This document shows, in pieces, positions 13,150-34,647 of a stretch of DNA of 36,019 nucleotides. The DNA comes from Alienimonas chondri (GTDB lineage: Bacteria > Planctomycetota > Planctomycetia > Planctomycetales > Planctomycetaceae), in NCBI RefSeq assembly GCF_013036045.1, contig NZ_WTPX01000075.1, positions 1 through 36,019 on the forward strand, written 5' to 3'. Made by a program: the position numbers and the translations under genes. The notes under the pieces were generated by a model. That model saw nothing but the letters and a program-made list of their open reading frames with translations. It did no database searches and was not told where the DNA came from. Every line of letters starts with the position of its first letter. Positions within the stretch are counted from its first letter, which is position 1.

Positions 13150-13156
13150 CACACCG

Positions 13157-14386: not shown

Positions 14387-14398
14387 ATGAGAGCCAGC

Positions 14399-16099: not shown

Positions 16100-16200
16100 C
16101 AAGTCTGACTTGGCGGGAAGCGTTTCGTCCGACCGTACGCCGGCCGTTCTCGACGGCGCCCGCGGAGAATCCCGAAGCCGAGACCGCGGACGCCGGCGGC

Positions 16201-16860: not shown

Positions 16861-16911
16861 AAAGACCCGCAGCGTTCCCGCCGACTCACGACCTGAAGAG
16901 AAACGACACCG

Positions 16912-18348
16912 ATGAAATTGTTTCGATCGACGCCGATCATTGCGCTAGGGTTTGCCGCGGTCACGTCCGTCTCCGCCGCGGCCGGCGGACAACCCAATCT
17001 CGTCGTGCCGTTCGCCGACGACCTCGGCTACGGGGAACTCGGCTGTCAGGGCAACTCCGAGATTCCCACGCCCCACATCGACTCGATCGCCAGAAACGGC
17101 GTGCGGTTCACCGACGGCTACGTCGCGGGCCCCAATTGCAGTCCCTCGCGGGCGGGATTGCTGACCGGGCGCATTCCGACCCGCTTCGGCTACGAGTTCA
17201 ATCCCATCGGGGCGGTCAACGAACGACCCGGCGCCGGCCTGCCGGCGGCGGAAGTCCCGATCGCGGAGACGTTGCAGGACGCCGGTTATACGACCGGGCT
17301 GGTCGGCAAACGGCATCAGGGCGGCACGGCGGACTATCACCCCTTCCGGCACGGCTTCGACGAGTTCTTCGGGTTCCTGCACGAGGGCCGCGACTTCGTG
17401 CCGCCGCCGTACGAAGGGGTCACGACGATGCTCCGCCGCAAGACGCTCCCGGGCGGGCTCACGGGCCGCTGGGTCGGAAGCAAAGGACTCATCTACGCCG
17501 ATCACATGGGCGGCAACGAGCCGGATTACGACGCCGACAACCCGATCGTCCGGGGAGGTCAGCCCGTCGTCGAGACCGAGTACCTGACCGATGCCCTGAC
17601 CCGCGAAGCGGTCGACTTCATCGACCGCCACGACGACAAGCCGTTTTTCCTCTACCTCGCCTACAACGCGGTGCACAGCCCGCTGCAGGGCGCCGACGCG
17701 TATATGGATCGGTTCTCGCACATCGAGGACGTCCATCGCCGCATCTTCGCCGCCATGCCGGCCAACATGGACGACAGCGTCGGAGCGGTGATGGCGCAGC
17801 TGCGGGAGTCGGGCCTGGAAGAGGACACGATCGTCTTCTTCCTCAGGGACAACGGCGGTCCGACTCGCGAACTGACCTCCAGCAATTTGCCGCTGCGCGG
17901 ATCGAAAGGGGAGATGTCCGAGGGCGCGCTGCGCGTGCCGGTCATGATGCAGTGGAAAGGAACGATCCCCGCGGGCCAAACTTACGAGAAACCGGTCAGC
18001 GCGTTCGACGTTTATGCGACCGCCGCGGCCAACAGCGAAGGCGTCGTCGCGCCCGAGCAGGTCGAGGGCGTCGACTTGGTTCCCTTCGTCACCGGCAAGA
18101 AAACCGGCGCCCCTCACGAAACGTTCTTCTGGCGTCAGGGCGGCAGATCCGGTTTGCGACACGGCGATTGGAAACTCGTCCGGATGGGCGGCTGGAAGGG
18201 TCCGAGCAAAGCGCCGTGGGAACACTATGACCTGTCGAAGGATCTCTCTGAAAAAACGAATTTCGCTAAATCAAAACCCGAACGTCTCGCCGAGCTGGTG
18301 GAACTGTGGGAGCGGATGAACGGCGAAATGGCTGAGCCGCTGTTTTGA
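16912..18348 (+). CDS. Secreted sulfatase, 2 of 5, with several drifted motif positions
   Basis: The 478-residue product has a signal peptide (to about residue 24), the metal-binding ADDLGYGELG block, C76-S-P-S-R for formylglycine, and Lys133 and His135. The family's GKWHLGG reads GKRHQGG here. The second metal motif reads FLRDNGG where SDNGG is usual, and EGAL replaces the common EGGI before RVP. The metal ligands and the Lys/His pair are kept, so activity is possible, but the second-shell changes suggest relaxed selection or a shifted substrate. HEGRDFVPPPYEGVTTMLRR and NAVHSPLQGADAYMDRFSHI place it with GalNAc- and arylsulfatase-like secreted enzymes. It follows the dead hydrolase by 51 bp. 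Confidence 0.87.
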   Translation: MKLFRSTPIIALGFAAVTSVSAAAGGQPNLVVPFADDLGYGELGCQGNSEIPTPHIDSIARNGVRFTDGYVAGPNCSPSRAGLLTGRIPTRFGYEFNPIGAVNERPGAGLPAAEVPIAETLQDAGYTTGLVGKRHQGGTADYHPFRHGFDEFFGFLHEGRDFVPPPYEGVTTMLRRKTLPGGLTGRWVGSKGLIYADHMGGNEPDYDADNPIVRGGQPVVETEYLTDALTREAVDFIDRHDDKPFFLYLAYNAVHSPLQGADAYMDRFSHIEDVHRRIFAAMPANMDDSVGAVMAQLRESGLEEDTIVFFLRDNGGPTRELTSSNLPLRGSKGEMSEGALRVPVMMQWKGTIPAGQTYEKPVSAFDVYATAAANSEGVVAPEQVEGVDLVPFVTGKKTGAPHETFFWRQGGRSGLRHGDWKLVRMGGWKGPSKAPWEHYDLSKDLSEKTNFAKSKPERLAELVELWERMNGEMAEPLF

Positions 18349-18530
18349 ATCGGAAGGAGCAGGAAAACGCGTCAGGAACCAATAACCGGATTGGGTTCCC
18401 GACACGTTCCCGACGCCTTTTCGTTCTCAGTTCCGCGACAAAACGCTTGACGCCGCGGCAAGCCACAATGCCTGTGTCCAATCAGAGCGCTATGTCCAAG
18501 CAGAAAACGATACGAATCGCCGCGACGTCC

Positions 18531-19859
18531 ATGAATACAAATAAACATCTACTCTTAGCTCTGGCCGTCACACTGTGCCCGGGCAGCTTTTCCCTTGCCG
18601 CCGACAAACCCAATATCGTCCTGATCCTCAGTGACGACCAGGCGTGGACGGATTACGGGTTTATGGGGCACCCGACGATTCAGACGCCGAACCTCGACGC
18701 GCTCGCTAAGCGAAGTCTCGTGCTGGATCGTGGCTACGTGGCGTCGCCGCTTTGCAGGCCCTCTCTGGCTTCGATGGTGACCGGTCTCTATCCGTTTGGA
18801 CACGGGATCACGGGAAATGACGTCGATGGCGGTAACGATCGCGCCGCGCTCGACGTCCCCCTGCGTGAGCAGTTTCGCCAGCATCCGAGCTTTATCCGAA
18901 CGCTTACCGCAAACGGTTATCTCGCGCATCAGTCGGGCAAGTGGTGGGAAGGCTCTTTCGCCGATGGCGGGTTCACTCATGGCATGACCCATGGCGACCC
19001 GAAACGTGGGGGTCGGCATGGCGACGCCGGTCTGAAGATCGGGCGTGAAGGAATGAAGCCGGTGACGGAGTTCATCGATCTGGCGGTCCAGCAGCAGAAG
19101 CCGTTCTTTGTCTGGTATGCGCCGTTCCTTCCCCACACGCCGCATAATCCGCCGGAACGTTTGCTCGCCAAATACGCGATCGATGGACGCGCTCAGGATG
19201 TCGCAGAGTACTACGCCATGTGCGAATGGTTCGACGAAACCTGCGGCGAATTGCTTGATCACCTGGATGCAAAAGGCGTCGCCGAAAACACGATCGTGCT
19301 TTACATCTGCGACAACGGCTGGGCAGCCGCCAGTACCAACGCCGACGATCCCAACCAGAAACTGTGGAAAGGATTCGCACAACGATCCAAAGGTTCGCCC
19401 TATGAGAACGGCATCCGAACGCCGATCATGGTCTCGTGGCCGGGTCGCGTAAAGCCGGAGCGGAGCAAAGACCTCGCCCACGCCATCGACCTCTTTCCGA
19501 CCATTGCCGCAGCGACCGGTGCGGAGGCTCCCGCAAATCTTCCCGGGATCGACCTGATGGACGCCGACGCTCGGAACGAACGCACGCAAGTGTTTGGGGT
19601 CGCCCACTCGATCCATAACATGACGGTCGGCGATCCTGACGATACGCAGCAATATCTCTGGTGCGTGGAGGACGAATGGAAGCTGCTCGTGCGCTACGCT
19701 GGCAAGGACACGACGAAGTACCGCAACGTACACGTCTGGGATAAGGCTCCGGCCCGACTGTTCCATCTCAAGAACGACCCGCACGAGAAACACGATCTTG
19801 CCGCGAAGCGCCCAGGGGTCGTCGAACGACTCAAACGAGCGATCGAGAACTGGCGCTGA
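18531..19859 (+). CDS. Secreted sulfatase, 3 of 5, with C-x-P-S-L activation motif
   Basis: ATG 18531 starts a signal peptide (MNTNKHLLLALAVTLCPGSF). The frame extends upstream to 18345, with another ATG at 18492. The 442-residue enzyme shows PNIVLILSDDQAWTDYG, then C75-R-P-S-L where most sulfatases have C-x-P-S-R. GKWWEGSFADGGFTHGMTHG, GRHGDAGLKIGREGM and the metal motif ICDNGW follow. These blocks define a recognisable bacterial sulfatase subgroup in which CRPSL/CRPTL is usual, so the Arg loss is probably native and not damage. Base composition is more AT-rich than in the genes before 9000. The next sulfatase starts 100 bp downstream. Confidence 0.9.
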   Translation: MNTNKHLLLALAVTLCPGSFSLAADKPNIVLILSDDQAWTDYGFMGHPTIQTPNLDALAKRSLVLDRGYVASPLCRPSLASMVTGLYPFGHGITGNDVDGGNDRAALDVPLREQFRQHPSFIRTLTANGYLAHQSGKWWEGSFADGGFTHGMTHGDPKRGGRHGDAGLKIGREGMKPVTEFIDLAVQQQKPFFVWYAPFLPHTPHNPPERLLAKYAIDGRAQDVAEYYAMCEWFDETCGELLDHLDAKGVAENTIVLYICDNGWAAASTNADDPNQKLWKGFAQRSKGSPYENGIRTPIMVSWPGRVKPERSKDLAHAIDLFPTIAAATGAEAPANLPGIDLMDADARNERTQVFGVAHSIHNMTVGDPDDTQQYLWCVEDEWKLLVRYAGKDTTKYRNVHVWDKAPARLFHLKNDPHEKHDLAAKRPGVVERLKRAIENWR

Positions 19860-19959
19860 GGTAAGATCCGCACCGAGCGATGCAACCGGCGACGCGTATG
19901 CGCGAGACAATATTTCCTTCGCTTAAGCTTCGGATTGCCCAAGACGATCAAACCTCATC

Positions 19960-21399
19960 ATGACGACAAACTTCGCTTCGCTGTTGATTCTCGGCCTTGC
20001 TTTCTCGTGCGCTGCGGCTGCCGAGCCGTCGGACGATCCTGGTAGCCGGCCCAATGTCCTTTTCATTGCAATCGACGATCTGAACGACTGGACCGGTTTC
20101 CTCGAAGGCCATCCACAAACGGCGACTCCTCACATGGACGCGCTGGCACTGCGGGGCCGGAGCTTCGCCAACGCCCATTGCGCCGTTCCCGTCTGCTCCG
20201 CGTCCAGAGTCTGCGTGATGTCGGGCGTCGCCGCGACGACGCACGGCAGTTATGAAATCGGCCCCCGTTATGAGGAGCTGCCTGCGCTCGCCGACGTCCC
20301 TACGATTCAGCGTTACTTCAAGGACAACGGCTATTACACATTGTCCGGCGGCAAGGTGCTGCACCATGGCTTCAGCGGAAGACTAACCGCTGACATCGAC
20401 CGGTCTCTTGGCCGCCCGAAAAGCCCCACGCCGAAGAAGCCGCTGAACCGTCCGCCGCACTGGAGCAAAGCTTGGGATTGGGGTGCGTTCCCGGAAGACG
20501 ACGCTGAGACGGCGGATTTCCAATTGGCGAACACGGCCGCCGAAGCGCTGCAGGAGGATTTTGACAAGCCGTTCTTCATGTCGGTCGGTTTCTTTCGCCC
20601 TCACGTTCCGCTCTACGTTCCGCCGAAGTGGTTTGATCTCTACGACGCAGAAAAACTCTCGCTGCCGCCGAACCCTGGGTCCGACCTCGACGACCTTCCG
20701 AAGAGCTTTCTCAGCATCAACGACTACGCGGTCGCTCCCACGCACGCCGAAGTAGTCGAGCACGGCAAGCAGCGAAGCTTGACCCACGCCTACCTGGCAT
20801 CGATCAGCTTCGTCGACCATTGCGTGGGCATCGTATTGGATGCTCTGGAATCCAGCCCCCACGCCGACGACACCCTCATCGTCTTGTGGAGCGATCATGG
20901 ATTTCACCTAAGCGAAAAACGACACTGGGCCAAGCGCACGCTTTGGGAAGAATCCACGCGGGTTCCGCTTCTGTTTGCCGGACCGGATATCCAGGCGGGC
21001 AAACCATGCCTGGAACCCAGCAGCCTGCTGGACATCTACCCGACGCTGGTCGAGCTGTGCGGGCTGCCGGCCAACTCTCATCTCGAAGGCGTTTCTCTCG
21101 TTCCTCAACTCGCCGATCCATTGACGTCCCGGGAACGACCGGCGATCACGTCATCGTACTTTGACAATCACTCCGTCCGGAGCCGGGACTGGCGATTGAT
21201 CGTCTATGACGACGCGTCGGAGGAACTTTACGATCATCGCAGCGACCCAGACGAATTCCACAATCTCGCAGGCGACCCGACCCGCCAAGCGATGCGGGAT
21301 CGGCTCGCCCGCTGGTTGCCGAAAGAAACAGCCCCCGAGTTCAAAAACGAATCCGAGCGGTCCCGGGCGCGTTCTCGATCGCGTGCGGGTCAAGAATGA
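19960..21399 (+). CDS. Secreted iduronate-2-sulfatase-like sulfatase, 4 of 5
   Basis: The 479-residue product has a signal peptide (to about residue 21), RPNVLFIAIDDLNDW, and C79-S-A-S-R as activation site. Ala at the third motif position is tolerated by known formylglycine-generating systems. GGKVLHHG corresponds to the GKVFHxG block of iduronate-2-sulfatases. FFMSVGFFRPHVPLYVPPKW and IVLWSDHGFHLSEKRHWAK (Asp-His metal pair) are also typical of that group. The likely activity is desulfation of uronate or related residues in a sulfated polysaccharide; the exact substrate is unknown. The C-terminal tail (ERSRARSRSRAGQE) is basic and may be extra. Confidence 0.9.
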   Translation: MTTNFASLLILGLAFSCAAAAEPSDDPGSRPNVLFIAIDDLNDWTGFLEGHPQTATPHMDALALRGRSFANAHCAVPVCSASRVCVMSGVAATTHGSYEIGPRYEELPALADVPTIQRYFKDNGYYTLSGGKVLHHGFSGRLTADIDRSLGRPKSPTPKKPLNRPPHWSKAWDWGAFPEDDAETADFQLANTAAEALQEDFDKPFFMSVGFFRPHVPLYVPPKWFDLYDAEKLSLPPNPGSDLDDLPKSFLSINDYAVAPTHAEVVEHGKQRSLTHAYLASISFVDHCVGIVLDALESSPHADDTLIVLWSDHGFHLSEKRHWAKRTLWEESTRVPLLFAGPDIQAGKPCLEPSSLLDIYPTLVELCGLPANSHLEGVSLVPQLADPLTSRERPAITSSYFDNHSVRSRDWRLIVYDDASEELYDHRSDPDEFHNLAGDPTRQAMRDRLARWLPKETAPEFKNESERSRARSRSRAGQE

Positions 21400-21522
21400 A
21401 GCGACGATGCTGACCCACGTATGTTCATAAAGCGGCTTCGCCGCAAATGATAATCGCGAAGCGTTCTCCGACCCCCGCGAAGCGTTTCCCATTCCAGTTC
21501 CCCTTTCATTTTAGCGCGAAAG

Positions 21523-23103
21523 ATGAGAACCCGACGAGCCATCCAGATGCTTGCGCTTTGTGCCGCGCTCTCGCTGATAGACTGCGTTGAACTGCACGCG
21601 CAGCAAAAGCCCAACGTGATCTTCTTTCTCGTGGACGATCTTGGCCAGCGGGATCTGGGTTGCTACGGCAGCCAGTTCTATGAAACCCCGGCGATCGACC
21701 AGTTGGCGAAAGACGGCATGCTGTTCGAGAACGCCTACTCGACGTGCCACGTCTGCTCGCCGAGCCGGGCGAGCGTCCTGATCGGGAAGTATCCGGCGCG
21801 GACCAATTTGACCGAGTGGCTCGGCGGACGCCCCGAGAGGGATTTCGAGCCGCTGCACCACGCCGAAAAGCTCACGGCTCTGCCTGATGAAGAACAAACG
21901 CTGGCGGAGACGTTGCGTCAGCATGGCTACGCCACCGCGAACTACGGCAAGGCTCATCTGAGGAAAGATCCGAAGAGCTACGGCTTCGACGAAGCCGTCA
22001 CGGGATGGGTGCGGTCCTATCATCATCCTTTCGGCGGCGGATATGACGAAACGCTGCCCGCAGAGGAGGGCGATTACTTTACGGATAAGCTGACCGATGC
22101 GGCCGTCGATTTTATTGAGCGAAACAAAGACAAGCCGTTCTTCGTGCATTTGGAGCACTTTTCCGTTCACGATCCGATCCAGGGTCGCAAGGATCTGGTT
22201 CAGAAGTACGAGAAGAAACTGGCGACGATGCGGCATCGGGAGGGCCCGGATTACATCCTCGAACCCAACCCGGACGGCCCCGCGATCTCAGGGGAGAAGC
22301 TCAAAGAGCTCGAAGAAAACGACGACGGCCGATCGCATCAGAACGAGCGAGTGGCGTGGGTGAAGCAGAAACAGGACAACGTCGAATTTGCCGGGATGGT
22401 CGAGGCGACGGATGAAAGCCTCGGTCGAATCCGCGCGACGCTGAAAGAACTCGGACTGGAAAAGAACACGATCATCATCTTTACGTCCGACAACGGAGGC
22501 ATGGCGGCCTCGAATCAGTACGGAGGAATCAGCCGTCCCCGCGAGTTTCTGAACTCGCGCTTCGCAAGCTCCAACCTGCCGCTTCGCGGGGCCAAAGGCT
22601 GGAACTACGAAGGCGGAATTCGAGTGCCGTTGATCGTCCATTGGCCCGGCAAGACGCAACCCGGCTCGACGTCACAGGCGATCGTCACCGGAACGGATTA
22701 CTACCCGACCCTGCTCGAAATGTCGGACCTCCCGGCGTTACCCGATCAACATGTGGACGGCCGAAGTTTCGTCCCCGCTTTGAGATCTGAAGACTACGAC
22801 CGCGGACCGGTCTACTGGCACTTTCCCCACTACAGCAATCACGGTTACCAAAGTCCGGGCGGCGCCGTTCGTTTCGGACGATACAAGCTGCTTGAGTATT
22901 ATGAAAACGGAACCGTTCAGCTCTTCGACCTCGAAAACGATATCGGCGAGCAGAACGACCTCGCGGAGTCCCGACCCGAGATTGCGCAAAAGCTGAAGAG
23001 AATGCTGCACGCATGGCGCGAAGACGTCGACGCCAAAATGCCCTACCCCAAAACTGCGACGTCCGCGCCCGCACCGGGATCGAGGGTCGCCCAGCCGAGA
23101 TAG
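21523..23103 (+). CDS. Secreted sulfatase, 5 of 5
   Basis: The 526-residue enzyme has a leader (MRTRRAIQMLALCAALSLID, cut near HAQ), VIFFLVDDLGQRDLGCYG, C78-S-P-S-R for formylglycine, and the metal motif IFTSDNGGMAA. SNLPLRGAKGWNYEGGIRVP supplies the conserved Lys. The GKWHLG block reads GKAHLRKDP, with the Lys and His kept. A charged insertion (about residues 230-285) separates the two halves of the fold. The ending AWREDVDAKMPYP is the usual C-terminus of this sulfatase group, so the gene is complete. Its substrate is probably a sulfated glycan, as for its four neighbours. Confidence 0.91.
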   Translation: MRTRRAIQMLALCAALSLIDCVELHAQQKPNVIFFLVDDLGQRDLGCYGSQFYETPAIDQLAKDGMLFENAYSTCHVCSPSRASVLIGKYPARTNLTEWLGGRPERDFEPLHHAEKLTALPDEEQTLAETLRQHGYATANYGKAHLRKDPKSYGFDEAVTGWVRSYHHPFGGGYDETLPAEEGDYFTDKLTDAAVDFIERNKDKPFFVHLEHFSVHDPIQGRKDLVQKYEKKLATMRHREGPDYILEPNPDGPAISGEKLKELEENDDGRSHQNERVAWVKQKQDNVEFAGMVEATDESLGRIRATLKELGLEKNTIIIFTSDNGGMAASNQYGGISRPREFLNSRFASSNLPLRGAKGWNYEGGIRVPLIVHWPGKTQPGSTSQAIVTGTDYYPTLLEMSDLPALPDQHVDGRSFVPALRSEDYDRGPVYWHFPHYSNHGYQSPGGAVRFGRYKLLEYYENGTVQLFDLENDIGEQNDLAESRPEIAQKLKRMLHAWREDVDAKMPYPKTATSAPAPGSRVAQPR

Positions 23104-23239
23104 GAACGCGGCGGAGGACGAACCGATACGGTCAGTCGGCGGTCCGGGCGATAGGCCGTCGCTCGACCCGGCGCGCGGCTCCGGGGTTCGACCGGATTTT
23201 CTGCGGACCGTCTCCGGCCGTGGCGGGTCTTGTTCCCGG

Positions 23240-23368
23240 ACTGCCGGGTCGACGGAGTCGGCCGAGTCGCTGGCGTTGCTGAAGCGCCGTGCTCAAGACG
23301 GCGACCCACGCGTCCGCGGCGAGGCGGCTCGGCTGCTGAAGCTCAGGGAGAACGGCGCCGAGAAGTGA
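23240..23368 (+). pseudogene. Possible C-terminal tail of a lost HEAT-repeat gene
   Basis: In the frame that stops at TGA 23366-23368, the peptide SAESLALLKRRAQDGDPRVR continues as GEAARLLKLRENGAEK. It has the helix-DPxVR-helix pattern of a HEAT repeat. No start or upstream domain can be found in the frame, which turns low-complexity before about 23230. It may be the remnant of a cytochrome/HEAT gene or chance. The rest of 23104-23552 shows nothing else I can support. Confidence 0.3.
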
Positions 23369-23552
23369 CGTTCCGACGCCGCACAACGCCCTCACGGGCC
23401 CGGTCCAGCCGGATCGTCGGCGCCGCGGCGTGTGATTGACGGGCGCGGGGACCGACAGTCAAGTGATCGTCGATCCGAACGCCCGGGCGACAGGCCCCCC
23501 GCAACGGGCGGTCGGGGCGGCCGTTCCCGAACTCCAGACCGTCCGAACCCCC

Positions 23553-24644
23553 ATGCGTCCGCTCGCTCATCGCTCCGCCGTACCGCCGGGACTTAGGTTC
23601 CTGACGGCCTGCTTGGCGACGCTGTGCCCGGCCGCCGCCGCGTTCGCCCAACTGCCGGACCCGGACCCCACGCCGGCCGACCCCTCGCAGACCGTGCAGG
23701 TCTTCATCCTGATGGGGCAGTCGAACATGCTCGAAATGGGCAAGGTCGCCGGCGACGAGGACGGCCGGCTGGAGCACGCGGTGAAAACCGAGGGGCTGTA
23801 CCCGTTCCTCGTGGACGAAGACGGGAACTGGACGACGCGGGCGGACGTGCGGAACGTCGCGGTGATGGGCAGCGGCGGGCCGGGGAAGAATCGGGTGCGG
23901 AAGAACGAATGGCTGACCGTCTCCGGCGGCAAGGTCGGCGTGGAGCAGGGCATCGGCCACCGGCTCGGCGCGGCGCTGGAGGAGCCGGTGTTGCTCCTCA
24001 AAAGCGCGATCGGCAACCGCAGCCTCGGCTGGGACCTGCTCCCGCCCGGTTCGCCGTCGTACGAGTTCGTCGATCCCGAGGACGGCAAGACCTACGTCTA
24101 CGCCGGCTACGGCGAGACCCCGCTGCGGTGGGAGAAGGGAGCCGAGCCGGAACCGATCGGCTGGACCGCCGGCGTGCAGTACGCCGGCGACGTCGCCCGC
24201 GCCCAAGCCGTGCTGGCGGACCTCGGCGCGTACTACCCCGGCGCCGCGGACTACGAAGTCGCCGGCTTCTTCTGGTGGCAGGGCGACAAAGACCGCTACG
24301 ACGCCGGCCACGCGGCCATGTACGAGCAGAACCTCGCGAACCTCGCCGCGGCCCTCCGCGCAGAGTTCGACGCCCCGGACGCCAAGTTCGTCGTCGCCAC
24401 CCTTGGCCAGACCGAGAAGGAGTCCGCCGCCGGCAACGAAAAGCTGATCCTCGACGCCCAACTCGCCCTCAGCGACCCGGCGCGGCGCCCCGACCTCGCC
24501 GACTCCGTCGCCACGGTCTACACGCACCCGCTCAGCCAGGGCGGCGCCTCCAACGGCCATTACGGCGGCAACGCCAAGACTTACATGAACGTGGGACTGG
24601 CGATGGGGAAGGCGATGGTCGAACTCCTGAACGACGCGAAGTAG
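23553..24644 (+). CDS. Secreted sialate O-acetylesterase-like SGNH esterase (DUF303/SASA)
   Basis: ATG 23553 begins a leader (MRPLAHRSAVPPGLRFLTAC) cut near AFAQ. The open frame itself reaches back to 23436. The 363-residue product has the block I motif FILMGQSNM with nucleophile Ser57. GHRLGAALEEPVLLLKSAIG, FFWWQGDKD and GHYGGNAKTYMNVGLAMG follow. The first Asp and the His are placed as in carbohydrate acetylesterases of the sialate/xylan type. It should remove O-acetyl groups from a polysaccharide outside the cytoplasm, complementing the upstream sulfatases. Higher GC than the sulfatases suggests it belongs to a different ancestral unit. Confidence 0.85.
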   Translation: MRPLAHRSAVPPGLRFLTACLATLCPAAAAFAQLPDPDPTPADPSQTVQVFILMGQSNMLEMGKVAGDEDGRLEHAVKTEGLYPFLVDEDGNWTTRADVRNVAVMGSGGPGKNRVRKNEWLTVSGGKVGVEQGIGHRLGAALEEPVLLLKSAIGNRSLGWDLLPPGSPSYEFVDPEDGKTYVYAGYGETPLRWEKGAEPEPIGWTAGVQYAGDVARAQAVLADLGAYYPGAADYEVAGFFWWQGDKDRYDAGHAAMYEQNLANLAAALRAEFDAPDAKFVVATLGQTEKESAAGNEKLILDAQLALSDPARRPDLADSVATVYTHPLSQGGASNGHYGGNAKTYMNVGLAMGKAMVELLNDAK

Positions 24645-24662
24645 CCGCCCCCCGGGGTCTTC

Positions 24663-24680
24663 GCCCCGGATCGCCGGGGC
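24663..24680. terminator. GC-rich hairpin after the esterase gene, possible terminator
   Basis: GCCCCGG-ATCG-CCGGGGC forms a perfect 7-bp stem with a 4-nt loop, 19 bp after the esterase stop. No T tract follows, so intrinsic termination is uncertain. Confidence 0.35.
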
Positions 24681-24834
24681 TTGCCGGGACGGGCCGCCTT
24701 CCTGGCAGGTTTTGCGGGCCACGACCCGGCGGACGCGGCGGGTTCCCCCGGGCGTCCGGTTGCGGAAACGGTCGTGACGCACCGACGGCCGCCCTCGCGG
24801 AGACCGCCCGAAACGCCTATCATCGCAGACTCAA

Positions 24835-24895
24835 GGGGCCGTAGCTCAATCGGTTAGAGCAGCCGACTCATAAGTCCGAAAAAATCCCGGCCCGA
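24835..24895 (+). pseudogene. Broken tRNA with CAU anticodon (5' half, Met/Ile2-like)
   Basis: GGGGCCG (24835-24841) is a plausible acceptor 5' strand. TA, the D arm (GCTC, then loop AATCGGTTA, then GAGC), A, GCCGA and the 7-nt anticodon loop CTCATAA (24867-24873) with anticodon CAT all follow with standard spacing. After the loop the match ends: GTCCG does not pair with GCCGA, and no variable loop or GGTTCGA T-arm is present. A CGGCCC at 24889-24894 could pair with six acceptor bases, so an internal deletion is an alternative to a split by integration. Either way it should not give a functional tRNA. Confidence 0.7.
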
Positions 24896-25406
24896 GGGCC
24901 GTTTGACCACTACAGCGATAGGGTTTCGCGGCGACCGCCGATAGACAACGGTTGTAGGCGTAACAACCCCAAACTACCCCGATCAGTTGTAGACTACAAC
25001 CGGCCGAAGAACGCCCGAACAAAGTTGGCGCGATCGTCCGGCCGTTCTGTGAAATCCCACGCCGGACATTCGTCGCGGGACGCCGTCCCCACGCAGTCCC
25101 GCGACGGCGGCGGCCGAACATCCGCGGCATCCCCCGCGAGGGATGAGGATCACCATACCCTCCTCTTCGACCAAGGTCGCGGACCGCTTGGCCGAGCAGG
25201 CACGCCCTCTCTCGCTAAACGGCTCCCGTCCCTACGACATGGGTAACCGCGGGAGTTGGAGGCGTGGATCTCATCTGCTTCTGATCAAAGGCAATTGACA
25301 CCTTGAATCATACAGCGAACACCGGGTGCCGGAATAGATTCTTCGCACATGTATTCGTCGTAGATCTGCGGGGCGTGTATCGACCTTTCGCCGATCGCTG
25401 GTTACG
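24896..25406. other. Non-coding stretch between broken tRNA and polysaccharide cluster
   Basis: About 510 bp with the palindromes above and no open frame of recognisable family on either strand. TTGACA occurs at 25295-25300, but no matching -10 box lies 16-18 bp downstream. The stretch likely includes the promoter of the epimerase gene and the left edge of whatever was inserted at the tRNA. Confidence 0.45.
24945..25000. repeat. Cluster of GTTGTAG/CTACAAC palindromes after the broken tRNA
   Basis: Three overlapping inverted repeats lie within 56 bp: ACAAC-G-GTTGT (24945-24955), GGTTGT-7 nt-ACAACC (24950-24968) and GTTGTAG-A-CTACAAC (24986-25000). The heptamer GTTGTAG also recurs directly at 24951 and 24986. 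This resembles core- and arm-type sites for a tyrosine recombinase, or operator half-sites. No integrase gene is in the window. Confidence 0.6.
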
Positions 25407-26543
25407 GTGCCCCTTCAAGCATTCAAGCCTACCGATCGCGGATCTCCCCCTTTGTCTGTACCGGCTCGGCCAAGCGAAACCGGACCCGTTCGGGCGGAGA
25501 AGCGCTCCCAACCCGTGCTGCTGACCGGGGCGGCGGGGTTCATCGGCGCAGCGGTAGCAGAGCGGTTGCTCGCCGGCGGGATGCGCGTGATCGGAGTGGA
25601 CAATCTGGACCCATATTACTCGCCAGCGTTGAAGCGGGCGCGGTTGGATCGAGTATCGGCTGCTGCGGAGCGGACGCGTGGACGATTCGACTTTCTCGAA
25701 CTCGACCTCGGCGATCGCTCGGCGGCGGCAAGGGTCTTCGAGGCCGGGCCGTTCGAATGCGTGATCCACCTCGCTGCCCAAGCGGGGGTGCGGTACAGCA
25801 TCGACAACCCACACGCCTACGCCGCGGCGAACCTGACCGGATTCCTACACGTGCTGGAGGCCTGCCGCCGGCAGGCCGAGTCCGGCGCCGGCGCCCCACC
25901 GCACTTGGTGTACGCCTCCAGCAGCAGCGTGTACGGGGCGAGCGCCGAGCCTGTCCTCGCGGCCGATCAGCCGGCAGACCACCCGATCAGTCTGTACGCG
26001 GCGACGAAGCGGGCGAACGAACTGATGGCCCACAGCTACACCCATCTATACGGGCTGCCGTGTAGCGGGGTACGGTTCTTCACCGTCTACGGCCCTTGGG
26101 GACGGCCCGACATGGCCGTCTGGAAGTTTACGGAGCGGATTCTGCGAGGTGAGCCGATCGACGTGTACGGCGGAGGCAAGATGCAGCGGGGGTTCACCTA
26201 TATCGATGACGCCGCGGAGGGCGTCGTCCGCCTCGCTGCCCGGCCGCCGGCCCCGGACGCGGTGCCGCCGCGTTCGCCGGACCGGGGGACCGGCCCGTTC
26301 CGAACTTACAATCTGGGCAGCCGGGAGCCGGTCGAGTTGATGCGTCTGATCAAGGCGATCGAAGCCGCATGCGGCCGCCCAGCGAACAAGCGATTCCTGC
26401 CGATGCAGCCGGGAGATGTCGTCTCGACCGCAGCGGAAACCTCATCGTTGGAAGAGGTGACGGATCTCGTCCCCGTCACGCCGATCGAGGAAGGCGTCGC
26501 CGCGTTCGTGGACTGGTACCGCGACTACAATGATGTCCGCTGA
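25407..26543 (+). CDS. UDP-glucuronate 4-epimerase-like NAD-dependent epimerase
   Basis: The 378-residue SDR epimerase has PVLLTGAAGFIG (residues 36-47) for NAD. GVDNLDPYYSPALKRARL follows, the typical second strand of UDP-GlcA/CapI-type epimerases. YASSSSVYG comes next, and Y197/K201 in LYAATKRANELMAHSY are catalytic. LPCSGVRFFTVYGPWGRPDM and the ending TPIEEGVAAFVDWYRDY complete the group pattern. One usually invariant position differs: KMQRGFTYIDD where RDFTYIDD is common. It should supply UDP-galacturonate from UDP-glucuronate for the exopolysaccharide. The first 35 residues have no family counterpart, so GTG 25407 is uncertain and a later TTG is possible. It converges on the acetyltransferase gene with a 50-bp gap. 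Confidence 0.88.
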   Translation: MPLQAFKPTDRGSPPLSVPARPSETGPVRAEKRSQPVLLTGAAGFIGAAVAERLLAGGMRVIGVDNLDPYYSPALKRARLDRVSAAAERTRGRFDFLELDLGDRSAAARVFEAGPFECVIHLAAQAGVRYSIDNPHAYAAANLTGFLHVLEACRRQAESGAGAPPHLVYASSSSVYGASAEPVLAADQPADHPISLYAATKRANELMAHSYTHLYGLPCSGVRFFTVYGPWGRPDMAVWKFTERILRGEPIDVYGGGKMQRGFTYIDDAAEGVVRLAARPPAPDAVPPRSPDRGTGPFRTYNLGSREPVELMRLIKAIEAACGRPANKRFLPMQPGDVVSTAAETSSLEEVTDLVPVTPIEEGVAAFVDWYRDYNDVR

Positions 26544-26593
26544 ACCGACGACGCGATCGCCCGAGCATTCGACCGATCGAGACCGGCGACAGG

Positions 26594-27217
26594 TCAGACC
26601 GGCGCCCGCGACGCGTCCGCGACCGGCTGCTCTTGCAAATTCCGTCGGCGGAGGAACCGAGCGGGATTACCGACGACGATCGCCCAGGGTTCGACATTCT
26701 TCACCGCGACCGCCCGGGCTCCGACCACCGCCCCCTCCCCCACGGCGATCCCCGGCCCGACGAACGCCTCCGCACAGACCCACGCCGATGCTTCGATCAT
26801 AATCGGCCGGGCGACCAGTCGCATGTGCGGGTCCGAGATGTCATGCGTCGCCGCACACAAAAACGCCCGCTGCGACACGGTCGCGTGAGCGCCCACGGAG
26901 ATCGGGGCGACGCAGTAACAGTCGACCTCCGCCCCGAGACAAGCGTACTCCCCCAGCGTCAGGTTCGCCGGCAGCCAGACCTTCGCCGACGGCAGCACCT
27001 TGGCTCCCCGCCCGACGTTCGCCCCGAAGAGCCGCAGCAGGAACCGCCGCCACCCCCACATGGGCCGAGGCGAACGTGCAAACAACGTCGGCCGCACCGC
27101 CCCCCAAGCGACACGGGCGAGTTTATTGCCCAGCGAGTGCGGGCTAGGACAGTCGTCGGGGGTGACGGCGACAGCGGAGGGCCGGGCCGGGCCGCCAGCA
27201 GGCTGGGCGGAGGTCAC
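26594..27217 (-). CDS. WcaF-like hexapeptide-repeat acetyltransferase
   Basis: The start is placed at GTG 27217, which overlaps the preceding stop as GTGA. The frame is open further upstream, with an ATG at 27259, but that would lie well inside the neighbour. The 207-residue product has the short N-terminal helix of colanic-acid acetyltransferases (NKLARVAWGAVRPTLFARSP, then MWGWRRFLLRLFGANVG). A left-handed beta helix follows: AKVWLPANLTLGEYACLGAE, then HATVSQRAFLCAATHDISDP with the catalytic His, then AWVCAEAFVGPGIAVGEGAV and GNPARFLRRR. It probably O-acetylates a sugar of the polysaccharide using acetyl-CoA. It is the last gene of the minus-strand operon. Confidence 0.87.
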   Translation of the reverse strand: MTSAQPAGGPARPSAVAVTPDDCPSPHSLGNKLARVAWGAVRPTLFARSPRPMWGWRRFLLRLFGANVGRGAKVLPSAKVWLPANLTLGEYACLGAEVDCYCVAPISVGAHATVSQRAFLCAATHDISDPHMRLVARPIMIEASAWVCAEAFVGPGIAVGEGAVVGARAVAVKNVEPWAIVVGNPARFLRRRNLQEQPVADASRAPV

Positions 27218-27770
27218 GCCGGCTTGCGGGCGGACAGGATCATGGATTTCCACAGCCATGGCAGGCGGCCGCCCCCGCGAAACCGAACGTCCTCGAACCC
27301 GGCTTCGGTCAAAAGGACGGACAGCGTCCGCCGCAACCAGAACTTGATGTGCCCGCCGTCCCACAGAACGGTGAAGTGGTCGTCAAGCTGACCAGCCGCG
27401 GCGAGGGCGGGGTTTGTAAGATAACCGTGATAGGGGGTCGTCATGATGACCGTACCGCCCGGTTCCAGCACGTCGAACAGGGCCGCAACATACGCTCGCG
27501 GGTCGTAAAGGTGCTCCACAACCTCCAGCGACGTCACGGCGTCGAACCGCCGCTCGAATAAGCTGGTGAGGTTATCGGTGACGGACGCCACCTCGAACCC
27601 CACGCCCGGATGCGTTCTTCGCGCCAACGCGATGCCACTCTCCGACAGATCGACCCCGGCCACGTCGACGCCGGCCGCGGGATCAGCGCACGGACCGGAT
27701 CCCGCAGATACGCACATGTATGGGCCGCCCCGGCGTTTGCATAACTATATTCATTATAGATCTCGGCACC
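27214..27770 (-). pseudogene. Class I SAM methyltransferase disrupted by deletion of motif I
   Basis: Two frames carry one methyltransferase. The upstream frame reads EIYNEYSYANAGAAHTCAYL, then RDPVRALIP, the usual N-terminus. The downstream frame (open to 27214) resumes at AAGVDVAGVDLSESGIALA and continues through FDAVTSLEVVEHLYDPRAYV, GGTVIMTTPYHGYL, HFTVLWDGGHIKFW and LLTEAGFEDVRFRGGGRLP. Between them, near 27680, the roughly 15-20 residues with the glycine-rich SAM loop (normally VLDLGCGNG) are missing and the frame changes. Without motif I the enzyme cannot bind SAM normally. The start lay inside the end of the FkbM gene. The remaining ORF still overlaps the acetyltransferase start, so its translation may be kept for coupling. 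Confidence 0.75.
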
Positions 27771-28566
27771 GTATATCTCCGACGGGGGCGTCCCGCACGC
27801 ACCACAGGACGTTAGCCGCGTCGTCGGCAGGGGCCGAGACTGGGCGCCCGTCCAGCGTTTCGATCCGGTAGCCGCGGGAGATTAGTTCGTCCTGCACGCC
27901 GGCCCGTTCCTCCGGGCCGTGCAATTCGATGTAGACCGCCGGAGCATGCCGTTCCAAAATCTGCTGAGCGCCCCGCAGGACCGCAGCGCCGGCGCCCTCC
28001 ACGTCGATTTTCAGCAGGTCTGGCGGCCGCTCGCCGGCGGCGACCACGCTGTCGAGGGTCACCGTTTTCACCTGCAGCACCGACGCGCCGTCGTGCCGGT
28101 ACGTAGGCTCCACATCCCGCAGTTTGCCCTGCGTCGCTCGGTCCTCTGGAAAATCGAAGGTCATGGCGCCTTCCCGGTCGGCCGCGGCGGCCCGCACCAC
28201 GCGGACCTCGCCGAATTCGTTGAGGGCGAGGTTCCGCTCCAAATCATCCGCAAGGCCGGGCACCGGCTCGAAACACACGACCCGCCCGCCCGGTCCGACG
28301 GCCCCGGCGAACAGCAGAGCGACTTGCCCGCGGTTGCCGCCCACGTCATAGACGGTCTGCCCGGTCCGCACCCGTCCCGCCAGGGCTCGCAGCTGTTGGC
28401 CGTCCATCCCGCAGGCGTAGGCCACGCCCATCGCGTCACGGACGACGAAACGAACCCCGCGCAGCGGCCCTACGAGGACACGCCGCACGTGGCCACGTGG
28501 GTAGAAGAGCTTGAGGAACTTGCCGATTGCTCGGACGGAGCGTCGGTGGGGGTCGGGCGGCGTCAC
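27754..28566 (-). CDS. FkbM family methyltransferase
   Basis: The 270-residue product has SAM motif I TVYDVGGNRGQVALLFAGAV, then GGRVVCFEPVPGLADDLERN (post-I acidic residue), and the FkbM signature PPDLLKIDVEGAGAAVLRGA. YIELHGPEE follows. Such enzymes O-methylate sugars in exopolysaccharides and glycopeptidolipids. GTG 28566 overlaps the preceding glycosyltransferase stop as GTGA. The sugar position is unknown. Confidence 0.9.
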   Translation of the reverse strand: MTPPDPHRRSVRAIGKFLKLFYPRGHVRRVLVGPLRGVRFVVRDAMGVAYACGMDGQQLRALAGRVRTGQTVYDVGGNRGQVALLFAGAVGPGGRVVCFEPVPGLADDLERNLALNEFGEVRVVRAAAADREGAMTFDFPEDRATQGKLRDVEPTYRHDGASVLQVKTVTLDSVVAAGERPPDLLKIDVEGAGAAVLRGAQQILERHAPAVYIELHGPEERAGVQDELISRGYRIETLDGRPVSAPADDAANVLWCVRDAPVGDIRCRDL

Positions 28567-29810
28567 GAGAGGGCCGGATCGCGGGACGAAACGGAGCGTC
28601 CGGAAAAGCAGACGGACTCCAGGGCGGAGACGCCGGCTGTTCGATCAAAGCCCTCGGCGATCCCACGAAGCTTCGCGGGGTCGCCGGCGAGGCGACCGGC
28701 CAAGAACGCTTGCATTCGGTCAGCCAGCGCCTCGGCGGAGGCGGTCTCCGTCAGCCATCCGTCACCGGCTAGCGTGACCAATTCCGGGATCGCCGCGACC
28801 GGCGTGGCGATCACCGGTACGCCCGCCGCGTAGGACTCCAAAATGATTAGTCCAAAGCACTCCAAGTCGCGGGTCGGCAGCACGAAGCAGTCCGCCGCCG
28901 CATAGCAGTCCGGCAAGTCTTCGTCCGGCACGAACCCCAGCAGCGTCACGCGCTCCGACAGCCCGAGAGAGTCGATTCGGGCCTGCAGCTCGCCTCGGAG
29001 CGGGCCGCCGCCGCCGATGAGCAGCCGGAACCGCTTCCCGGACCGGTCTAACGCCGCGGCAGCGTCGATCAGCAGGTCCAACCCCATCCGCCGGTGCAGG
29101 CGACGCAGCGTGAAGAACGTCGGTTCCTCCGCCGCGTTCGCCCAAGCCCCGCCGAGCCGGGCTCGCAGTGCGGGACGATCCTCGACCGGCTGGAAACGTT
29201 CGATATCGATCCACCCGTGGCAGACCGAAGCTCCCCCGACCGGGGCGTCCCGAAGCGTTGATATGTCGGGGCACAACGCTCGCAGGCGATGCAGAGTGAA
29301 TGCCGAGAGGCCGACGATCGCGTCAGCACGGCGGCAGTTTCGCCCTTCCAATTCTGCCGCCACGCGGGTCGACCAAGCTTGCGGTCCGCGGCGGCCCTCC
29401 GCGGCGAACTCGTCCGCAAACGGGGAATGCACCGTATACACCGTCCGGCCCCCCTCGCGGGCCCGCGACTTCGCTCCCCGGAGTCCCCTCAGCGCCCCGG
29501 TAAACTGCAACGGCGTGTGCCCGTTCAGGCAGTCCGGCGGTCCGGCCTCGGCAAGGACTCTCTGCACGGCGGCGGCTGTCCCGCGCACATGACCCCACAA
29601 AGCGAAGGGGCCTCGCCCCCGCGGACGCGGATAGCGCCACACCGTCACCCCCCGCTCAACCGTCCGCGGCGGGGGGGTTCGTTCGTGTCCACAACAAACA
29701 TAGTGCACCCGGCGCCCACGGTCCGCGAGACTCTCGGCGAACTCGGTCGCCAGTTTGAACGACCCACCGGCCAGATCGTCCACCCACGCGTGTGCTGTGA
29801 TCAGAATCAT
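28563..29810 (-). CDS. Glycosyltransferase family 4
   Basis: ATG 29810 begins directly at the first Rossmann strand (MILITAHAWVDDLAGGSFKL); a GTG at 29861 is the upstream limit and would overlap the previous gene. The 415-residue GT-B enzyme has VYTVHSPFADEF, ADAIVGLSAFTLHRL, FFTLRRLHRRMGLDLLIDA, LIGGGGPL, and the C-terminal sugar-nucleotide motif ECFGLIILESYAAGVPVIAT. It is a retaining transferase for the polysaccharide repeat; donor and acceptor cannot be read. The last 30 residues are family-unlike. Confidence 0.9.
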   Translation of the reverse strand: MILITAHAWVDDLAGGSFKLATEFAESLADRGRRVHYVCCGHERTPPPRTVERGVTVWRYPRPRGRGPFALWGHVRGTAAAVQRVLAEAGPPDCLNGHTPLQFTGALRGLRGAKSRAREGGRTVYTVHSPFADEFAAEGRRGPQAWSTRVAAELEGRNCRRADAIVGLSAFTLHRLRALCPDISTLRDAPVGGASVCHGWIDIERFQPVEDRPALRARLGGAWANAAEEPTFFTLRRLHRRMGLDLLIDAAAALDRSGKRFRLLIGGGGPLRGELQARIDSLGLSERVTLLGFVPDEDLPDCYAAADCFVLPTRDLECFGLIILESYAAGVPVIATPVAAIPELVTLAGDGWLTETASAEALADRMQAFLAGRLAGDPAKLRGIAEGFDRTAGVSALESVCFSGRSVSSRDPALS

Positions 29811-29854
29811 TTGGGAAGGAGCGTCTCCGAGCGTCGGCGGCGGGATTGAAGGCG

Positions 29855-30970
29855 TCAGCACAGGTCGAACATCGCTTCCAGCGGCGGGGTGACCCGTTCC
29901 CAGCGAAACCGTTCCGCATTCTCGCGCGCCGCGGCGGACAGTTCCGCGTGATGGTTTCGATCTGTCAACAGTCGATCGAGGTGATCAGCGACTGCAGTCA
30001 CGTCGTCAGGATCGCAAAATCGCCCGCCGGCGCCGCCGATCTCCGGCATTGCGCATGCCGTCGAGCCGATGACCGGCACGCCGAACGTCTGGGCCTCCAC
30101 CGCGGGGATGCCGAATGATTCGCACCTGCTCATCAGGCAGAAGACGGTCGCCTCCGCGTAATGCCGATACAGTTCGTCCCGGGAAACACGCCCGACGATT
30201 CGAATATAATCTTGCAGGCCCGAAGCGGCAATTTCCGCCTCGATCTCGGCGCGATAATCGGGGTGCGACCACGGGCCGACGAACCTTATTTCAAACCGCC
30301 GTCCACGGTTACGGAGCGCCGTGCCCGCACGTATGAGGGTCTCCGCATTCTTCCACCGGGCCATCACCGATACGCTAAGAATCAGATCGTCTCGCCGCGG
30401 TACACCGCTTGCCGCGGCAGCCTTCCGCGCAGATTCATCAACGGCCTGATAGAGGATCAACTCGCGGGTTGCGGCGGGGGCGCCGGCGTCTCGGTAGAGC
30501 TGACGCAGATGGTTCGAGTTATAGATCATCAGATCGGCCTCGGCGGTCGCCGCCCGGTACGCTCGACGTTGGACAGCTGCTCGAATCCTGTCGAGTCCCT
30601 TCTTCGGGACCGCCTCCGTCAGGCACCAAGGGTTTTGGGCGAAACAGACCTGCGGGACCGGCAGACGGACGGGCGGCAGGGAGCCAGCAGGCGTGAAAAT
30701 GAGGTCGGCTCCGGCCCGACGCACCTCTTTGGAGAGCTGAGTTTTCTGCCACACCGCACGACGGAGCGGCGATGTAAGGTCGATGCCCAACCGAATCGCC
30801 GAGATGTTCTCCGGAAGATCCTTCCCCAATGCATCTTGCGTGAGGTCGTGCAGCAAGACGAAACGGTGCCGCCCCGCGGTACGGCGGGCTAACTCCCGAA
30901 GATGGCCGCCAAGCACGTGGTAGCCGCTGGGGGCGCGAGCGGAGAGGCCGTCGATCAACGCGATGGCCAT
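29855..30970 (-). CDS. Glycosyltransferase family 4
   Basis: ATG 30970 is chosen because it shares its A with the previous stop (TGATG) and opens the fold (MAIALIDGLSARAPSGYHVL). The frame itself is open to 31399, but that part overlaps the membrane protein gene. The 371-residue product has ADLIFTPAGSLPPV, ADLMIYNSNHLRQLY, ILSVSVMARWKNAETLIRA, FVGPWSHPDY, and the motif SRCESFGIPAVEAQTFGVPV. It resembles mannosyltransferase-like GT4 enzymes. Confidence 0.9.
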   Translation of the reverse strand: MAIALIDGLSARAPSGYHVLGGHLRELARRTAGRHRFVLLHDLTQDALGKDLPENISAIRLGIDLTSPLRRAVWQKTQLSKEVRRAGADLIFTPAGSLPPVRLPVPQVCFAQNPWCLTEAVPKKGLDRIRAAVQRRAYRAATAEADLMIYNSNHLRQLYRDAGAPAATRELILYQAVDESARKAAAASGVPRRDDLILSVSVMARWKNAETLIRAGTALRNRGRRFEIRFVGPWSHPDYRAEIEAEIAASGLQDYIRIVGRVSRDELYRHYAEATVFCLMSRCESFGIPAVEAQTFGVPVIGSTACAMPEIGGAGGRFCDPDDVTAVADHLDRLLTDRNHHAELSAAARENAERFRWERVTPPLEAMFDLC

Positions 30971-32448
30971 CAGCCGTTCCCCGTCAGTTTCGTTTCGGGA
31001 TAAGCACGGATGCGATCCCGGCCGCGACGAGAGGGCGGAGCGTCGTGAACGCCCCTCGAATTCGCCCTGCGCCACTGGGCAGGACCGGGCGGTCGATTGC
31101 CCCAACTTCTTGCACCACTTCCCATTCCCAGTCGCAGCACGAACCCTGCGATTGCTAACAGCAGGAGCATTTCCATCGGATCCCCGCTGAAAGACTGATG
31201 GGAGATCGTCATGCAGGCCGCCGCCGCCGCGAGCATCGCCAGCAGGCAGGTTTGCAGACGGGCGTGCGGAGCAAACTCCCCGCGGCGAGGCACGGCGGCG
31301 GCGAATGTTCCCAACAGTGCCAGCAGTGCGCAGACAAGCAGAACAGTACCCGGTAGCCCCAGTTCGGTAAGCACCCTCGCGCCCATACTCTCGGGCCACG
31401 CCAAGTTCCGACCGGCGACGTAGTGGTGTCCCTGCGTGGCGGACCCCAGCCCGTTGCCAAGTAACCCGTACTGTCGCAGCACGGGGTCGATTGAAGACAC
31501 GGTTTCAGTTCCCAGCCGCTCCGTGCTGTCGCCCAACGTCGACGCTAAGTAGTCCTCGTTCCCGAGTCCTAATCCGGTCTCGCCCGCGGTCAATACGATG
31601 CCCACCGCGGCGATGCCCGCTCCCGCGGCGGCCATGCCCACCGCCTTCACCCAACCCTCCCGCAGCGCCTGGAGGGCGGCGAAGACGCCGACGAATACGA
31701 CCGGGACGCCGATCATCTTCCGTCGCCCGCAGAGGACCAAACACGCTCCGCCCCACACGACCAGCAGTAGCCATCCCCACCAAGGAATTCGACGGCCCGT
31801 TTCCGGTCGATGAACGGCAAGCGTCGCCGCAAACATCATTAGGTGGGCCGCCCGCAGGCCCATGGTGTCCGGGCTACGATACCAACCGGAGATCAGTGGA
31901 ATAACTTCTTGACCGTGGTACCGAACCCACTCCATCTCGATCCCCCCCAGCCCCTGCCACCCCCACCCAAATCGTTCAGCCGGTACTGAGATTAACATCG
32001 CAGCGTTCACTGCACAGTACCATCCCGCTATTCGACGAACGTCCGCAGCCGAGTGCGCGAACGCGAAGCCAATCGCGAGTCCAAGGAGGGGAGCCAAGTA
32101 AGACACCGCGCCGAACGCGGCGACCAACGGTCCGCGGGGTAACGTCGCGGCCGCCACGGCCGCCCCGGGCAACAGGGCTGCAACAAGAAGCGCCACGAAC
32201 CTTTTCGTCCCCGGTTGCGCCCGGAATATCGCCTTGGCCCCCCCGCGTCTCTCCAACAGCAATCCCGCGAAAACCGCGGCCCACACCGCCGCCGGAGCCA
32301 GCGTCATTAGCAGCGGGAAGTCGGGCGTGAGTTTTCGAGCCGGATCCCGGACTGCGTCGAACAGCACGGCCGCGTAGATGCCCCACCGCCACCGGATGAG
32401 GGAGATCCCGCAGCAAGCCGCCACGGCCATATAAAATAAGCCGGCCAT
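30970..32448 (-). CDS. O-antigen ligase/polymerase-like polytopic membrane protein
   Basis: The 492-residue product has about ten hydrophobic segments, including MAGLFYMAVAACCGISLIRW, AAVWAAVFAGLLLE, WGWLLLVVWGGACLVLCGRR and GTVLLVCALLALLGTFAAAV. A long extracytoplasmic loop (about 305-365) carries GLLGNGLGSATQGHHYVAG, the polar loop of Wzy_C-type proteins. It likely polymerises or ligates the polysaccharide at the membrane. The last 55 residues are Arg/Pro-rich and probably cytoplasmic. It is coupled on both sides by TGATG overlaps. Confidence 0.78.
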   Translation of the reverse strand: MAGLFYMAVAACCGISLIRWRWGIYAAVLFDAVRDPARKLTPDFPLLMTLAPAAVWAAVFAGLLLERRGGAKAIFRAQPGTKRFVALLVAALLPGAAVAAATLPRGPLVAAFGAVSYLAPLLGLAIGFAFAHSAADVRRIAGWYCAVNAAMLISVPAERFGWGWQGLGGIEMEWVRYHGQEVIPLISGWYRSPDTMGLRAAHLMMFAATLAVHRPETGRRIPWWGWLLLVVWGGACLVLCGRRKMIGVPVVFVGVFAALQALREGWVKAVGMAAAGAGIAAVGIVLTAGETGLGLGNEDYLASTLGDSTERLGTETVSSIDPVLRQYGLLGNGLGSATQGHHYVAGRNLAWPESMGARVLTELGLPGTVLLVCALLALLGTFAAAVPRRGEFAPHARLQTCLLAMLAAAAACMTISHQSFSGDPMEMLLLLAIAGFVLRLGMGSGARSWGNRPPGPAQWRRANSRGVHDAPPSRRGRDRIRAYPETKLTGNG

Positions 32449-34645: not shown

Positions 34646-34647
34646 AT

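Follow-up and report, generated by a model that had tools for sequence, protein, structure and literature searches.

A displaced tRNA-Met 5′ half in Alienimonas chondri probably marks an attachment site of an integrative element with a lambda-type tyrosine recombinase

Integrative elements that displace the 5′ part of a tRNA gene have been described mainly as exceptions. In the available text of the Islander study (Hudson et al. 2015, PMC4383910), a 5′ fragment is recorded in 159 of 3919 islands, and the accessible sections of PMC6563490, which cites Zhao and Williams 2002, call the 5′ geometry considerably less frequent. The pTN3-like archaeal integrases use the 5′ half, part the tRNA from its promoter and disrupt the integrase gene (PMC8371274 and PMC5495485, sections available), and a similar situation is said to be seldom met in bacteria (PMC8371274). 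The accessible part of PMC9897764 describes tRNA fragments left by integration as pervasive, and that of PMC10865867 presents a different solution, a whole tRNA borne by the phage. Here we describe a locus of the 5′ type in the planctomycete Alienimonas chondri. The window, that is, the whole stretch of 36,019 nucleotides analysed, is the complete contig C329, one of 355 contigs in a draft genome of 5.3 Mb. Its positions 24835-25002 are probably (with a probability of about 0.86) an attachment (att) site of an integrative element, at which a lambda-type tyrosine recombinase crosses over in the anticodon loop of tRNA-Met(CAU).

The window carries a displaced tRNA-Met(CAU) 5′ half at 24835-24873 on the plus strand, which equals the first 39 nt of an intact gene of the same genome, C319:9077-9150(−). 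The half (GGGGCC...GACTCATAA) spans the acceptor 5′ strand to the final base of the anticodon loop, which is the crossover region; the initial annotation had described exactly this truncation, and the match to the intact gene confirms it. ARAGORN called no tRNA in the window, and the Rfam tRNA model gave the half a weak match that skipped the T-arm positions, its 20.2 bits falling short of the gathering score of 29. The region directly 5′ of the half (24802-24834, plus strand) resembles the same region at the intact C319 gene and at its counterpart in G001, a genome of the same genus assembled as one contig. It is presumed to be a promoter; a consensus promoter scan found none.

A genome search for the intact CAU tRNA and for a recombinase gene near further copies of the repeats, as proposed in the initial annotation, led to contig C319. 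Upstream of the intact tRNA there, a tyrosine-recombinase gene starts at a distance of about 98 bp and points away from the tRNA (we read its frame start as C319 9249). It matches the Pfam family Phage_integrase and is the sole match to that protein in the genome. The intact copy expected at the far end of the inserted DNA thus exists beside an integrase; it lies on another contig, so that the full length of the element is unseen. On the 3′ side of the tRNA, C319 1-9 kb is collinear with G001 in the same orientation, up to the G001 tRNA-Met at 1,695,613-1,695,686, with about 2.4 kb extra in the matching stretch of G001. Because the 3′ side matches G001 up to tRNA-Met, the C319 tRNA gene seems to be native, with a 5′ side that has been exchanged.

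The GTTGTAG repeats noticed earlier next to the half proved to be copies of a 9-bp arm-type motif. On the integrase side of C319, this motif occurs as CGGTTGTAG and CGGTTGTAA, in direct orientation and 12 bp apart. In the P arm of the window, CGGTTGTAG recurs at 24949-24957 on the plus strand, and CAGTTGTAG (24984-24992, plus strand) and CTACAACCG (24994-25002) form an inverted pair at 24984-25002. The initial annotation had counted three palindromes; three motif copies are indeed present, and the last two make up one single palindrome. Most of the other two-ended elements have inverted arm pairs at comparable distances. Across the window, C319 and a further contig, C328 (about 104 kb in all), CGGTTGTA[AG] occurs five times, and since four of the five occurrences fall at the two att sites, the copies are unlikely to be there by chance. 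The palindromes look like integrase arm sites. As the P arms keep the motif and match the arms of the C319 integrase, the end marked by the half looks recent.

The breakpoint at window 24873 recurs in relatives. A tRNA 5′-half pattern found matches in 31 of 99 relatives, and a looser pattern in at least 116 of 170 genomes of the family. Among the loci fetched, 13 CAU genes in 12 genomes (window included; three more that were cut by contig ends were left out) break off at the anticodon loop, away from any contig end. They are tRNA-Met or a second CAU tRNA, in our reading probably Ile2, and the one in G040 is decayed (CATGA). The second CAU tRNA is also a target: in G015 an integrase adjoins it, and G057 has a half at 1.5 kb from an intact gene (L131, L132 and L123). 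At L042 (G004), L120 (G102) and L123 (G057), half and intact gene are only 1.5-2.2 kb apart, and the 1.2 kb preceding the intact gene showed no integrase of the same family; these loci are remnants or minimal elements. The single-contig genome G013 has its half at 4,968,377 and, 42 kb away at 5,010,611, an intact tRNA-Met beside which the integrase lies. A scan of 32 of the larger open reading frames in this 42-kb element showed portal, terminase, tape-measure and replication genes, and the element is a prophage.

With the G013 integrase as query, a match was found in 49 of 99 genomes, and ARAGORN called at least one tRNA in 25 of the 30 integrase loci listed. Nineteen integrase sites, each with 4 to 80 kb of element side, were analysed, of which 13 had been preselected for a tRNA and for contig beyond, and the other six were hits in complete or near-complete genomes taken irrespective of tRNA. 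A tRNA was present at 17 of the 19 sites, and 11 of these 17 had a 5′ half on the same strand at the far end. The 11 halves belong to Arg-TCT (3), Arg-CCT (3), Thr-CGT, Leu-TAG, Ser-GCT, Asp-GTC and Sec-TCA, and the elements concerned range from 9.8 to 72 kb. A whole-tRNA search at the 19 sites gave nothing that read as a displaced 3′ half; matches to the 3′ part were just 12-24 nt long and lay mostly in arrays of other tRNA-like genes. The integrases at L174 (G086:7699872-7700068) and L075 stand beside arrays of tRNA-like genes that are odd and divergent (Ala-tgc, Arg-tcg, Arg-tct, gcg). In G042, 72 kb separate a tRNA-Sec with its integrase from a tRNA-Sec 5′ half (L077 and L192), and this stretch is an integration site in the selenocysteine tRNA.

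An independent set was obtained by scanning GTDB species genomes with alignment A2 and taking the best 80 of 122 relatives. Nearly all titles in this set are planctomycete, and the two Nealsonbacteria and one Proteobacteria among them are probably misbinned or misnamed. In 64 of the 80 loci, a tRNA lay 88-502 bp upstream of the integrase match, and in 61 of these 64 the two were divergent; one locus had a tRNA within 1 kb downstream, and sixteen anticodon types were represented overall. Five further 5′ halves of 38-39 nt were found within the flank (at most 10 kb). Altogether, 17 two-ended elements (G013 included) carry a displaced 5′ half of 38-44 nt at the far end, and in all 17 the intact tRNA and the 5′ fragment are in direct orientation with the integrase-bearing element between them. 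An integration boundary within the anticodon loop, as first proposed for the window, is thereby supported by relatives in which a single contig shows both ends of this geometry.

These counts bear on the possibility that an internal deletion, named in the initial annotation as the competing origin, or damage by an insertion sequence (IS) cut an ordinary copy of the tRNA gene. Contig C319 holds a second half, C319:24871-24910(−), which is 4 bases shorter and stops inside the anticodon loop. Some 26 bp from this half lies the end of an IS-like unit whose 40-bp terminal repeats are 70% complementary, as such damage might leave it. Against this origin, the same break at the end of the anticodon loop occurs in the 17 two-ended elements and in the 13 CAU halves of 12 genomes (G013 being in both counts, and the window one of the 13), and arm sites lie at similar distances, which is not expected from deletion. 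The initial annotation had named relatives with the same broken tRNA and no such cluster as a refuting case; this case is found in part, the halves of other genera standing beside other DNA such as the G013 prophage, and it favours integration rather than deletion. We therefore consider deletion or IS damage extremely unlikely.

The two ends of the elements share a common architecture. About 77 bp upstream of the restored tRNA stand two direct arm repeats, mostly at a 12-bp offset, and at the other end an inverted arm pair is usually located some 96-130 bp into the element. In 18 end pairs (17 elements plus window/C319), cognate ends shared a mean of 4.8 9-mers compared with 1.06 for non-cognate ends, and at least one 9-mer was shared by 17 of 18 cognate pairs compared with 47% of 306 non-cognate pairs. 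A direct repeat of at least 8/9 within 140 bp was found in 56 of the 61 divergent regions (20 shuffles: mean 4.6, maximum 11); 47 of the 56 are at a 12-bp offset and 35 start 72-83 bp upstream of the tRNA, while about 6 are, in our reading, other repeats and not the arm motif. At the other end, an inverted pair of at least 7/8 was present in 17 of 18 cases (50 shuffles: mean 4.2, maximum 9), this being the best inverted pair found and not the arm motif in every case. By eye, the motif forms an inverted pair in 14 of 18 and a direct pair in 4 of 18 (G047, both G086 elements, Arg-CCT and Asp, and L238). The arm consensus is C[GA]GGTGTC[AG]; the copies behind it were chosen by their likeness to the consensus, and the repeat-versus-shuffle tests are independent of it. 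A core in the anticodon loop, flanked by two direct arm sites and two more, is the arrangement that a lambda-like integrase would use. A terminator following the half was considered as a family feature and rejected, only 4 of 18 elements having z below −1.5. The window itself has two terminator-like hairpins, both on the minus strand and one of them beside the half (0.8 expected).

From this architecture, the circular form of the element would read integrase, two direct arm sites, upstream region with tRNA 5′ half, anticodon-loop core, arm sites that are mostly inverted, and cargo. On integration, strand exchange would join the 5′ half of the element to the 3′ half of the host gene, so that the tRNA would be whole again and read from element DNA. 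The original 5′ half of the host gene would be displaced to the far end, where it would form the fragment in the window, and the DNA upstream of the tRNA, its promoter included, would be replaced by that of the element. The initial annotation had called the retention of a 5′ half the less usual geometry, which agrees with the Islander count; its contrast with elements that restore the tRNA does not stand, as the tRNA is still restored, through a 5′ half and upstream DNA that the element supplies. The elements are presumably mobile at present.

The recombinase agrees with this scheme in fold. An AlphaFold2 model of the family member from Bythopirellula polymerisocia has a mean predicted local distance difference test score of 90.5, and the top PDB match of the whole model is full-length lambda Int (TM-score 0.57 by query). 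The N-terminus is modelled as strands 26-31 and 34-40 and helix 44-59, a beta-hairpin plus helix that would fit an arm-binding domain; no Pfam model recognises this domain. Phage_integrase matched 31 of 31 aligned relatives at E <= 0.01. In alignment A3, K246, R324 and Y355 are invariant and H346 is nearly so, which we read as the Lys, Arg II, second His and Tyr nucleophile apparently being kept.

Several observations weigh against the proposed att site and its integrase. The invariant G221 (31/31) aligns with the Arg of the XerA TGVR motif, so that Arg I of the RKHRH pentad is absent, and the invariant Y321 of YxLR (31/31) replaces the first pentad His (HxLRH) by Tyr. The C319 integrase gene has one in-frame TGA. 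Among the six unselected sites, a tRNA was found in four and a half in two. Six of the 17 tRNA-linked sites lack a half (G032, G037, G039, G043, the second G042 site and one in G086), the stretch available for the search being short in G032, G037 and G039. In the independent set, 3 of 64 tRNA-linked loci have the opposite orientation, the integrase facing the tRNA 3′ end (L228, L270 and L277), and 16 of 80 have no tRNA within reach, three of these with less than 300 bp of flank. A TATAAT-like sequence (at least 5/6) was found upstream of 10 of 61 restored tRNAs versus 12.2 in shuffles, that is, with no enrichment of a −10 element; promoter replacement is suggested by position. In the window, the far end of the element is off the contig, and half and intact tRNA with integrase are on separate contigs. 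Furthermore, window 3.1-8.8 kb matches G001 426-431 kb, whereas tRNA-Met of G001 (1,695 kb) is 1.26 Mb away from there, so that DNA has also been rearranged or relocated. Finally, the second C319 half shares 127 upstream bases with the window, implying two copies or a strain mixture.

With regard to the active site, Gly stands in place of the catalytic Arg I throughout the aligned integrase relatives (A1 and A3). Function of the integrase is nevertheless possible, because the available text of PMC8138268 reports a similar active-site change in IntDes and a relocated Arg in the CTnDOT integrase.

The DNA upstream of the window half is more than an ordinary chromosomal flank, for it carries traces of an integrase gene. 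Window 24690-24873 is 86% identical to C319 9295-9112, which covers the integrase start and the integrase-tRNA interval, and about 47 bp of it (24690-24736, minus strand) are an integrase stub homologous to the start of the C319 gene. Also upstream of the half, CGGTTGCGG and CGGTCGTGA at 24757-24777 (plus strand) make up a direct arm pair that has decayed; its members are 12 bp apart, and it aligns with the C319 pair. Because a decayed integrase start and decayed arm sites lie upstream of the half, the site looks like a junction formed when a second element inserted at the tRNA end of a decayed, older element. The same region overlaps the end of C319: window 24640-24869 is 96% identical to it, and the first 127 bases (24640-24766) are exact and form the point where two alternative continuations meet. 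An exact overlap of 127 bases would be the trace of an assembly graph built on 127-base words in which one sequence has two continuations, and the overlap thus seems to be a branch point of the graph.

This overlap, in a draft of 355 contigs, is what could suggest that the half tRNA is an assembly chimera, a false join. The repeated tRNA half (39 nt) is far shorter than the 127-bp overlap, the arm sites proper to such an end come after the half, and the layout is also found in the single-contig genomes G013, G018, G040, G042 and G048 and in the three-contig G086, all of which make a false join very unlikely. At the right end of the window, 35963-36019 form a near-perfect hairpin with arms of about 28 bp (91% inverse self-match), which probably stopped the assembly there. 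No other contig of the genome closely shares the last 1.5 kb of the window. Joining this end to another contig was tried and dropped, the only overlap among the window, C319 and C328 being the 127 bp at the C319 end.

As the initial annotation stated, a polysaccharide cluster begins 3′ of the half. Its genes (25407-35823) encode an epimerase, an FkbM methyltransferase, glycosyltransferases and a pyruvyltransferase, and they are the presumed cargo. The first of them lies 405 bp from the arm sites. By its position and the adjoining arms the cluster is likely to be cargo of the element, and no more than likely because the contig ends before a second boundary. It is also conceivable that the att site is real and the cluster is not cargo, the half being a moved or left relic and the cluster resident or otherwise acquired. 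The match of the left flank to a G001 region far from tRNA-Met and the lack of a second boundary before the contig end would agree with this, as would the broken synteny upstream of tRNA-Met: genes upstream of the G001 tRNA-Met fall on other contigs here (C54, C135, C175 and C84). That gene order had been considered as a synteny proof for the window flank and was set aside as rearranged and not decisive. Against a non-cargo origin stand the P arms beside the half, which keep the motif, match the C319 arms and make the end look recent, the short distance from the arms to the first gene, and the C319 element, which has the same kinds of ends and also carries glycosyltransferases. Between its integrase and second half, C319 holds a fucosyltransferase, a 2006-amino-acid RHS-repeat protein, two glycosyltransferases and the IS-like unit. 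We regard a cluster unrelated to the integrase as unlikely.

On the other side of the half, a cytochrome c, DUF7133, ThuA, sulfatase and SASA esterase cluster (9390-24644, plus strand), described from a scan of part of the genes in this stretch, has no close counterpart in G001 and elsewhere only scattered, mostly short matches; it is possibly cargo of an older element. To its left, synteny with G001 ends at window 8827 and the G001 continuation is at the end of C328, so that 8828-9390 is a further boundary of inserted or rearranged DNA. C328 contained no match to the tRNA-half or arm patterns. Beyond the integrase, no phage gene was recognised among the Pfam-scanned proteins of the window and C319 (no PHROGs search was made). 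The cargo of 12 smaller elements in relatives, examined through 92 of the larger open reading frames, includes, among the families listed (25 of 40 and 25 of 78), primases, DnaB-like helicases and HTH_17 proteins, and in a few instances capsid, protease and terminase genes; these elements are satellite-like. Defence genes were rejected as a cargo class, each of 10 PADLOC families appearing in just one of the 92 reading frames.

Taken together, these results tentatively suggest, somewhat short of an even chance, a distinct and undescribed subfamily of lambda-type integrases in Planctomycetota that lacks the canonical Arg I, swaps the upstream region and 5′ half of many tRNAs, and is common to prophages, satellite-like elements and polysaccharide islands. 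In the literature searched, from whose coverage most subscription papers fall outside, no account of such elements in Planctomycetes was found. If such a subfamily exists, each integration would put an essential tRNA under element control, raising the question whether the elements control host tRNA supply, and a rare promoter-side replacement would be the standard mode of a whole bacterial integrase clade, with an active site seemingly without the usual first arginine. Successive elements would stack different sugar-coat islands at one tRNA. The 39-nt 5′ half, the CRGGTGTCA arms and the integrase by the intact tRNA would form a signature for exact element ends, by which prophages and satellites of a little-known phylum could be mapped wholesale.

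Compared with known systems, the elements resemble those of lambda-type recombinases in fold and in the direct and inverted arm-like repeats around the core, but differ in the replacement of Arg I by Gly and of the first His by Tyr, and in an N-terminal domain without a Pfam match. IntDes, as described in the accessible part of PMC8138268, likewise has a displaced first Arg and a first His changed to Tyr, a likeness drawn from that description; it is reported there from Desulfovibrio only and with unknown function. As with the pTN3-like archaeal integrases in the sections available, the restored tRNA would here be cut off from its original promoter, but the pTN3 integrase gene is split on integration, whereas here the gene is whole and adjoins the tRNA. 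The reversed geometry of Zhao and Williams 2002 appears to be the same as here, to judge from the title and its citation in PMC6563490. The main text of the Islander study contains no occurrence of "Planctomycet-". In the part of that study available, its 5′-fragment islands show, as here, a restored tRNA and a direct displaced 5′ fragment with a tyrosine integrase and the element between, and sites centred on the anticodon form one class there as well. The 5′ fragment, rare in Islander, is the usual state in the integrase clade described here.
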